DNA of 64,000 nucleotides, taken from assembly GCA_903813345.2 (NCBI GenBank), contig CAIIXF020000006.1, positions 27,535,936 through 27,599,935 of the forward strand, read 5' to 3'. The translations under genes were made by a program, and so were the position numbers. Of the stretch, positions 57,201 to 60,615 are shown one piece after another (positions within the stretch are counted from its first letter, which is position 1; each line of letters begins with the position of its first letter). Origin of the DNA: Owenia fusiformis. Its lineage: Eukaryota > Annelida > Polychaeta > Sabellida > Oweniidae. The notes beneath the pieces were generated by a model. The model saw nothing but the letters and a program-made list of their open reading frames with translations. It searched no databases and was not told the DNA's origin.

Positions 57201-60200
57201 TCTGGGACCCAAACTATATTCTTCATTGATTCTCAATAAGGAAAGGCACTTTAGTTAACACCCAAACCTTCCATAACTTGTTCGCTTTATACTTGTTTCA
57301 CCACTTGATTTACATGCTTCAGTAAACCCAAAGAATCATCATTAATTACACCATAATGGTCATTAACATTGATATAAATAGGAACAGCAGCATTGCATCC
57401 TTTATTATTCTCTGGCAATCTGTTTTGCTTACGGTGACTCAAGTTACTTTTTTATTTCTGAACAAATTAAATTTAACTTCAAGCTTATTCACGTCATTTC
57501 TTGCCAGTATCTCTGTTGTCGTTTTGATGTCATGAGAGAAACTGATGTCAGTGCTCATATATTTATGATCAATATTCTGTTCGCAGAGGCTACTTGATCC
57601 GATTGTCTGTAGATTTAATCCCTCATTCACTGATTATATGTTCAACAGAATCTCTAACTACCATCAAAAGCTAATCAGAATTTATCTCGTAATTCTTACT
57701 AAAGCAAGGAATTATGGGCTAGCCTTTTAATGCAGCGGCCATCATTATCGCATATCATACTTCCTAATTTGTAGCTGATCGTGTTTTATTGCTCATTCTA
57801 TCCAATTCGGAGATTGTCTATGCGAATGTTAGGGCAAGATAGCACGGGTATTAATTTTATTAAAATGGTTCAAATGTGCGTTAGCCTGCCTTAATATTCT
57901 GTCGACTAATTGGCCTACTGATTCGTTGTTTAGAGTGGACGTCAAGGAAAAAAAATATTTGATGATTGGCTCGTTCTAGTGGAGATGTGCTACAGAAAGA
58001 TACACTTGTTGAATCGTAAATTGTGTACTGTCGTTGGTAGTTAGCAAGTTATTTGTTCAACTTTCCCAGTGGGCAGGTTTAACATACATAAATGTCCAGA
58101 TGAATTTCAGAGAAGGTTAGATAGGATATTGAAGTTATTCTGTGTATACAGCCCCAATCCGAACTCTGAAATCATAGCACCTTACGGTATATGAAGAGAA
58201 TGGTACCTCATGGTAGCATTCAAGTGTTCATAGTACCATACTGTATGGTACCATATTTTACAGTACTGTAGCCAAAACGGTATTGTACGGTACTGTTGAA
58301 GATTGGTAGTGTATGTATTAAGCGAAATCTTTTCGAATCCTAAGAGTACAAAATAAGAACACCGTCATACTCATTCCATAGAGTGACATGTTAACCTCTC
58401 AAAATGTCATATTGCTAGTCAAAGTAGTGTTCATTTTATTCAGATTTCAGTGCCATGACTGATTAATATAACTGGATTGTATTAATTGTGTTAATTAGCC
58501 TTCAAATTTCAAAACAGTCATCAATTGCAATTTCAAATCACAAAAGTGAAAACATTAGGCATTGATATAATGATCTATTAACATGTCCCCATCAGTATAA
58601 GTCAACTCATCAGTTTATTTGTCCCGCAGGTAGGCAAATACTACAGACAATATGGCAGACTGTGGCAGAGTTAAATGACATCAAGTTGTTCTTTTGTCTT
58701 GCTTTATACTTTATTCAGATGTATGTATGTATATGTATATATTTCACATTTATGCATGTAACGTCATAATTACACTTAGTGACTCAGTACTTAGTATAGA
58801 TGGCAGGCTATAACTCATTGACCTAGATTCCAGTCTTACTACTGTCTCATTACTTTTTTTAAATAAATTTCTTTGTATACTTTTAGGCCTGTAATGAGTT
58901 CACGACTCATGTGGTCAACTTACTGCGTGAACAGTCCCGCACCCGTCCTATCGCGCCAAAAGAAATAGAGCGCATGGTCAGCATAATACGACGAAAGTTC
59001 TCCGCCATTGAAATGCAACTAAAACAGAGCACTTGTGAAGCTGTAATGATTCTACGCTCACGATTTTTAGATGCCAGGTTCGTATGATTCCCAGTGACGT
59101 TTGGTGTACAAAATGTTTATATGGTCATGTTTTGAAATGCAAAATAGCGGGGAAAATTGTAGAAGTAACAAAAATTAAATTTGTTAGATTCCAAGAATTA
59201 TTTTTTTAATCAAATATGGCAAAACTTGGACATTGTGTCCTAAACTTTTGTGTCCCTTGTAGTATTCAGTATTCAATAATATCACTGAAAAACATTTAAT
59301 GTAATGAGAAATTAGAAAAAATCTTGATCAAAGAGAGAATCAGATCTAGCGAAAAGGCCAACAAAAAATTGTTTGAATTTTAGAATATTTCTAGCTCATA
59401 TCATTCCTTGTCATGTCTATTTTCTAAATATTCCCAAAGTACACACTTTATTTCAGGAAAACTAAAGATTTTCACAATAATGTATTATTTTTCTATAAGA
59501 ATGGTTACCATTTTTATTATATGGGAGGATTTAAACATTTTTCACTCATTTTTGCACTTTGAATCCATAATAACTTCACCAATTTATAACATATCGAGAA
59601 TTTTTGGGAGATATTGTATTTGAGGTTGTATGGAATAGATTGTTAGGTCAATTGTACATGTTTCTTGTAACTTTATCACCCCTATAGATCTGATTCTGCC
59701 TTTAATTATTGCACAAATTTTTAAAAATATAATACATAAAAGAGAGACTAAATCTTCAAGAAAAAAGAAAAAAGATAATGTACAAGTCTAAAATTTTAGT
59801 CTGATAAAACAAGAATTCTTTTGGCCTTAAATCATCATATTGAAAAAAGTGCAATTTGATGTACACCCACTGCTATGAATGGATGGAAAAAGAGAGAAAT
59901 TGATATTGGAGAACATCAATTACATATTAAACTTGAAATAATTCATTGCTGTTCTGTAGACATTAAATATTTATATCTTTCAATTGCTAGGAAGCTCCGT
60001 CTATTCTTGGATACAAATGTTTATGAACAAAATGTTTAATGTCGTTTGTTTAAACTAATTAATCTTCAGAATAAGAATACTGTAGTTTTCTTCATAATCT
60101 TGCATGCCCTGTTTTGACATTATTTCAGACGAAAACGACGCAATTTTACCAAAAATTCCACGGTTGTATTAAATGAATACTTTTACTCCCATCTGGCGAA

Positions 60201-60615: not shown

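Follow-up and report, generated by a model that had tools for sequence, protein, structure and literature searches.

Can a single PBX gene offer its partners more than one homeodomain? PBX is a master developmental gene whose product is a partner of Hox proteins; few developmental regulators are as conserved as PBX/Exd, which is commonly regarded as a single, unchanging partner for many Hox proteins. The question is raised by a stretch of Owenia fusiformis DNA (C6:27535936-27599935, the 64,000 nucleotides hereafter called the window, in a 498-Mb assembly with 12 large contigs), where a PBX gene displays two tandem homeodomain exons, 5a and 5b (also HDa and HDb), and, further upstream, two tandem PBC-domain exons, 3a and 3b. 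The gene model was assembled from the window and the following 20 kb. Our results point to the sole PBC-class gene of this genome, in which two exons were anciently tandem-duplicated and both copies kept, so as to form two mutually exclusive sets and 2x2 isoforms. The probability of this reading was put at roughly 0.86.

It was confirmed that this PBX gene has two homologous homeodomain exons that agree in phase and are each usable without the other. The sequence-only reading had described them as 136 nt each, equal in phase and covering the same part of the homeodomain, and coordinates, splice flanks and in-frame joins all bore this out. Both copies are preceded by an acceptor ending in ...tttcag and followed by a GT donor; each joins the AG end of exon 4 and then meets exon 6 at ...CAG/GTTTCTAAC, in frame (the slash marking the splice junction). 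Their products run from the arm to helix 2 of the PBX homeodomain and count 46 residues with the split first codon (45 in the earlier count), 12 of which differ between the copies, as had been claimed. Characters of the TALE class were found in both, i.e. the RKRRNF arm, which they share, and the three-residue loop extension between helices 1 and 2, which reads LSN in HDb and LAN in HDa. When spliced to exon 6, either copy gave full-length ungapped matches to the PBX1 and Exd homeodomains of the PDB. Over the 46 residues HDb differed from Exd at only 2 positions and from PBX1 at 5 (13 and 11, respectively, for HDa); judged by this comparison, HDa is the derived copy and HDb is nearly Exd. The 42 nucleotide differences between HDa and HDb changed 12 residues, against 26 expected had they been placed at random (minimum 18 in 5000 randomisations). 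This, together with the stops found in 84% of the randomised versions, excludes chance.

The second tandem pair of the same gene was absent from the sequence-only reading. The Pfam PBC model displayed two matches, 49 nt apart, to the same part of the domain, and the corresponding exons 3a and 3b agree in phase and both end in ...CAG. Only 3b has the Ala-rich linker that characterises PBX proteins. Isoforms 3a+5a and 3b+5b both carry a PBC domain (282-286 bits, profile positions 2-181) N-terminal to the TALE homeodomain, both Pfam domains being matched end to end; by this domain content the gene is of the PBC class (PBX/extradenticle). Two further coding stretches were found 3' of exon 6. As two different exons each occur in two copies, one might think of a second PBX gene, overlapping or nested, that owns 3a and 5a. 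Yet exons 1, 2, 4 and 6 are single in the locus and in the genome, duplicated exons have no third copies, and no second PBC-class gene was found in the assembly, which makes such a gene extremely unlikely. Stray relatives of the PBX homeodomain were likewise absent from the viral and bacterial/archaeal contig collections.

A clear relationship was observed between exon choice and reading frame. Among 16 exon-choice products examined, only the four single-choice ones (3a or 3b with 5a or 5b) encode an intact PBX, and every double inclusion or skip in either pair loses the frame. Joining 5a to 5b ends in ...AKKTELQ and a stop, which is the eighth codon and agrees with the earlier claim of a stop within ten codons, while skipping both shifts the frame; joining 3a to 3b is frameshifting as well, and skipping both again loses the frame. 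The two pairs thus combine adjacent homologous exons of matching phase, copies that are coding-intact under constraint, and an unusable mRNA whenever both or neither are included. With this organization, 3a/3b and 5a/5b are very likely spliced in a mutually exclusive manner, and one PBX gene would yield up to four PBX proteins through exon choice in RNA splicing. Double inclusion and double skipping could also be put to use, the exons being not strictly exclusive and joining or skipping of both providing a regulated route to frameshifted, degraded mRNA that lowers PBX. The loss of frame in both events would suit this, and 215 nt, the length of the 5a-5b intron, suffices as an intron in this genome (smallest estimated, 126 nt). 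However, conservation at the protein level is not required of a poison exon, whereas it is seen in all four copies, and the 58-nt spacing makes the joining of 3a and 3b improbable, so that this alternative was considered unlikely.

Mutually exclusive splicing may be enforced differently in the two pairs. The 50 introns estimated in myosin and chaperonin genes of this genome ranged from 126 to 2230 nt (median about 300). Exons 3a and 3b are only 58 nt apart, less than any of these introns, which fits steric exclusion; here exclusivity would likely rest on a steric block together with frameshift and nonsense-mediated decay (NMD). For 5a/5b, steric exclusion was rejected, as some introns of this genome are shorter than 215 nt. 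Since this intron is long enough to be spliced, frameshift and NMD are the likely guard there, perhaps aided by structure within it: seven of the 15 TGACATCA motifs of the whole window are clustered in it (60269-60477, both strands), and its predicted fold reached a z of -3.8 versus its own shuffles. A competing RNA structure would be one whose conserved base-pairing selects one of the two exons. Three TGCATG motifs flank the duplicated exons (see the table), and the choice between 3a and 3b may be made by a tissue regulator, e.g. Rbfox, whose target exons have UGCAUG nearby, at positions that decide the effect; this motif-based lead is suggestive but arose post hoc. The Rbfox C-terminal Pfam model had no match in the genome; an RRM query retrieved an Rbfox-like RRM (RNA recognition motif) on C9.

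Several points weigh against strict exclusivity or its proposed regulation. Exon conservation shows use, but is no proof by itself of mutual exclusivity. The intron sizes above were estimated from profile gaps, not from complementary DNA. Some other windows of the PBX gene fold about as strongly as the 5a-5b intron. The three TGCATG in 673 nt of flanks, compared with 0.31 expected (P about 0.004), are a post hoc count, and AGCATG also occurs upstream of exon 5b.

Table. Features of the PBX locus, in positions of the window unless stated otherwise
Feature	Position	Strand	Basis
PBX exon 1, coding part, ends DEAQA+AG	21120..21298	+	tblastn with PBX1 and translation
PBX exon 2, PBC domain, single copy	21430..21503	+	Pfam PBC match, splice sites, in-frame join
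TGCATG (Rbfox-type motif), upstream of 3a acceptor	49104..49109	+	function putative
Alternative PBC exon 3a, 218 nt, GC-AG donor (CAG/GCAAGT), without Ala-rich linker	49147..49364	+	Pfam PBC 82.4 bits; phases 1 to 0; in frame between exons 2 and 4
3a-3b interval, 58 nt	49365..49422	+	below all 50 introns estimated in genome (126-2230 nt)
Alternative PBC exon 3b, 251 nt, canonical form with Ala-rich linker	49423..49673	+	Pfam PBC 83.1 bits; phases 1 to 0; in frame
TGCATG, just downstream of 3b donor	49687..49692	+	function putative
PBX exon 4, PBC domain end to LDA-R, single copy	58887..59077	+	Pfam PBC 104 bits; 92% identity to PBX1
TGCATG, just upstream of 5a acceptor	60101..60106	+	function putative
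Alternative homeodomain exon 5a (HDa), divergent copy, 136 nt	60129..60264	+	sequence comparison with Exd and PBX1
5a-5b intron, 215 nt, unique in genome, seven TGACATCA/TGATGTCA motifs, strong predicted hairpins	60265..60479	+	
Alternative homeodomain exon 5b (HDb), canonical copy, 136 nt	60480..60615	+	sequence comparison with Exd and PBX1
PBX exon 6, carries VSNWFGNKRIRYKKN	64330-64486 (extended window coordinates)		

The age of the duplications was addressed through the proportions of differing synonymous (pS) and nonsynonymous (pN) sites. Pair 5a/5b displayed a saturated pS of 0.88 with a pN of 0.14 and a nonsynonymous divergence (dN) of 0.155; for 3a/3b, pS was 0.94 (also saturated), pN 0.053 and dN 0.055. 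Under neutral expectation, one copy drifting freely would bring dN to at least about half of the synonymous divergence (dS). Saturated synonymous sites combined with such small protein change indicate that all four copies were long kept by selection, and no residual similarity was found between the flanking introns of paired copies, which further indicates that the duplications are old. By these measures all four exon copies are ancient and selectively maintained. That 3a and 5a would instead be dying pseudo-exons left by an old duplication could be argued from the larger distance of HDa to Exd and PBX1 (13 and 11 differences against 2 and 5 for HDb) and from the GC donor of exon 3a. Still, the protein was kept while synonymous sites became saturated, stops and frameshifts are absent from every copy and splice sites are intact. 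Moreover, CAG/GCAAGT fits the known GC-AG consensus and maintains the frame, unlike the GT located 4 nt downstream, which would break it; pseudo-exons are therefore very unlikely. An assembly artefact, i.e. a haplotype copy or collapsed duplicate placed in tandem, is practically negligible: nothing was found in its favour, the copies are only 70-75% identical in DNA, the introns around them are not related to each other and the one separating 5a from 5b has a single occurrence in the genome. As to when the duplications occurred, HDa and HDb have Ser41 in common (Thr in Exd and PBX1), and 3a and 3b share, by eye, a GPGQP stretch that is not in the PBX1 query sequence. Both features weakly suggest that the exons were duplicated within the lineage, once it had separated from arthropods and vertebrates.

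The consequences of the homeodomain swap were considered next to published contacts. In PBX1, the Hox Trp and its neighbours are contacted by Phe252, Leu256, Pro259, Tyr260, Arg288 and Lys292 (PMC8198631). All of these hexapeptide contacts are either identical in HDa or located in the shared exon 6. The sequence-only reading had proposed that HDa alters the hexapeptide pocket through the LSN to LAN change; the change itself is present, but it amounts to Ser257 (position 23b, in the loop) becoming Ala, and Ser257 is not among the published contacts, so the pocket was weakened as a mechanism. The changes also announced for helices 1 and 2 were found as described, most of them where helix 1 begins (positions 9 and 11-15) and in helix 2 (30, 33, 36 and 37), with one more at position 43. 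As the 5a and 5b isoforms have the RKRRNF arm in common and take their recognition helix from the same exon 6, they should make the same base contacts. With hexapeptide contacts kept and changes lying on helices 1 and 2, the swap more likely alters contacts with MEIS, non-hexapeptide Hox surfaces or co-regulators than it abolishes hexapeptide binding. The earlier interpretation, that splicing could choose between PBX proteins of different partner preference, hence stood as regards two homologous, phase-matched, usable exons whose double inclusion or skipping destroys the frame, and not as regards the pocket. Four isoforms are predicted, which would share the recognition helix, N-terminal arm, hexapeptide pocket and base contacts and would be distinguished by the surfaces of helix 1/helix 2 and of the PBC domain, including its linker. 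Isoform 5b/3b would likely be the ancestral-type PBX, and 5a/3a a specialised cofactor, likely to bind the same DNA and Hox hexapeptides with different contacts to MEIS, other Hox surfaces or co-regulators.

DNA-binding domain families were also screened genome-wide for adjacent matches to the same domain region. A posterior (AbdB/Post2-like) Hox gene displayed two last exons separated by about 180 nt (C1:17970442-17970636 and 17970793-17970987), either of which encodes a complete homeodomain and has an acceptor and a stop of its own. They differ at 12 of 65 residues, with saturation at synonymous sites, and appear to be alternative terminal homeodomain exons. In a POU6-like gene (C7, minus strand), two pairs were recorded, both intact: POU-specific exons 90 nt apart (7980805-7980942 and 7981033-7981170) and last exons encoding the homeodomain end (7976183-7976311 and 7976571-7976673). 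Tandem intact bHLH exons occurred in an ARNT-like gene (C10 minus, 1093677-1093835 and 1094325-1094483; 13 of 53 residues differ, pS 0.84) and in an E-protein-like gene (C7 minus, 20925469-20925603 and 20926741-20926875), the latter resembling vertebrate E12/E47. The POU-specific and E-protein pairs were near saturation (pS 0.73 and 0.74) and the other tandem pairs were synonymous-saturated. No tandem same-region pair was found among 38 Forkhead matches, and in one nearby nuclear-receptor set the divergence was too great for an exon pair. With tandem DNA-binding-domain exons in these other genes, PBX is no isolated oddity in this genome. At C9:37986009-37994334 (minus), about a dozen tandem exons all match one segment of the myosin head (profile 25-83) and make up a large array of the Mhc type of mutually exclusive exons. 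The window itself also carries a 102-nt minisatellite in two arrays of opposite orientation (131-452 and 7095-8207, with 3 and 11 copies).

If the proposed scheme is true, the cofactor side of the Hox code would be switchable by splicing, and the pairs in POU6, posterior Hox, ARNT-like and E-protein-like genes suggest a wider, little-noticed diversification of transcription factors. A tentative and rather doubtful extension is that splicing, not gene duplication, diversifies the Hox/TALE system here, 2x2 PBX cofactors being combined with a posterior Hox gene with two homeodomain exons; matching splice choices within one cell type would then change which Hox-PBX complexes arise. No PBX gene with duplicated homeodomain or PBC exons was found in the search, which covered open-licence papers; the PBX splicing known so far affects the C-terminus (PMC4755740). 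Within that literature, the statement of the sequence-only reading that no PBX with alternative homeodomain exons had been described was not contradicted, and the claim of novelty is accordingly provisional.

Mutually exclusive DNA-binding exons are known from E12/E47 and FOXP1. Like PBX here, the E12/E47 gene (TCF3/E2A) is a single transcription-factor gene in which part of the DNA-binding domain is encoded twice, by tandem exons that are homologous and agree in phase; there the domain is a bHLH, whereas here it is a homeodomain, with two exon pairs in one gene and an unswapped recognition helix. Mhc and Dscam arrays similarly consist of tandem duplicated phase-matched exons in two or more clusters per gene, but encode structural or receptor proteins and have many copies per cluster. 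In the forkhead switch of FOXP1 (exon 18/18b), alternative exons also alter the DNA-binding domain; that swap hits DNA-contacting residues, in contrast to PBX, where exon 6 supplies a common recognition helix and base contacts should stay. Mutually exclusive FOX exons are cited in PMC9013439. Homothorax/MEIS, a Hox cofactor gene of the TALE class, also yields diverse isoforms, with micro-exon and homeodomain-less forms (PMC7392893, PMC3157405); it is not known to have tandem duplicated homeodomain exons. Finally, vertebrate PBX1a and PBX1b likewise derive from alternative splicing of PBX into isoforms with different activities (PMC4755740), yet by PTBP1-controlled skipping of exon 7, which changes the C-terminus only and leaves one homeodomain and no duplicated exons, whereas in the gene described here the choice would fall within the PBC domain and the homeodomain themselves.
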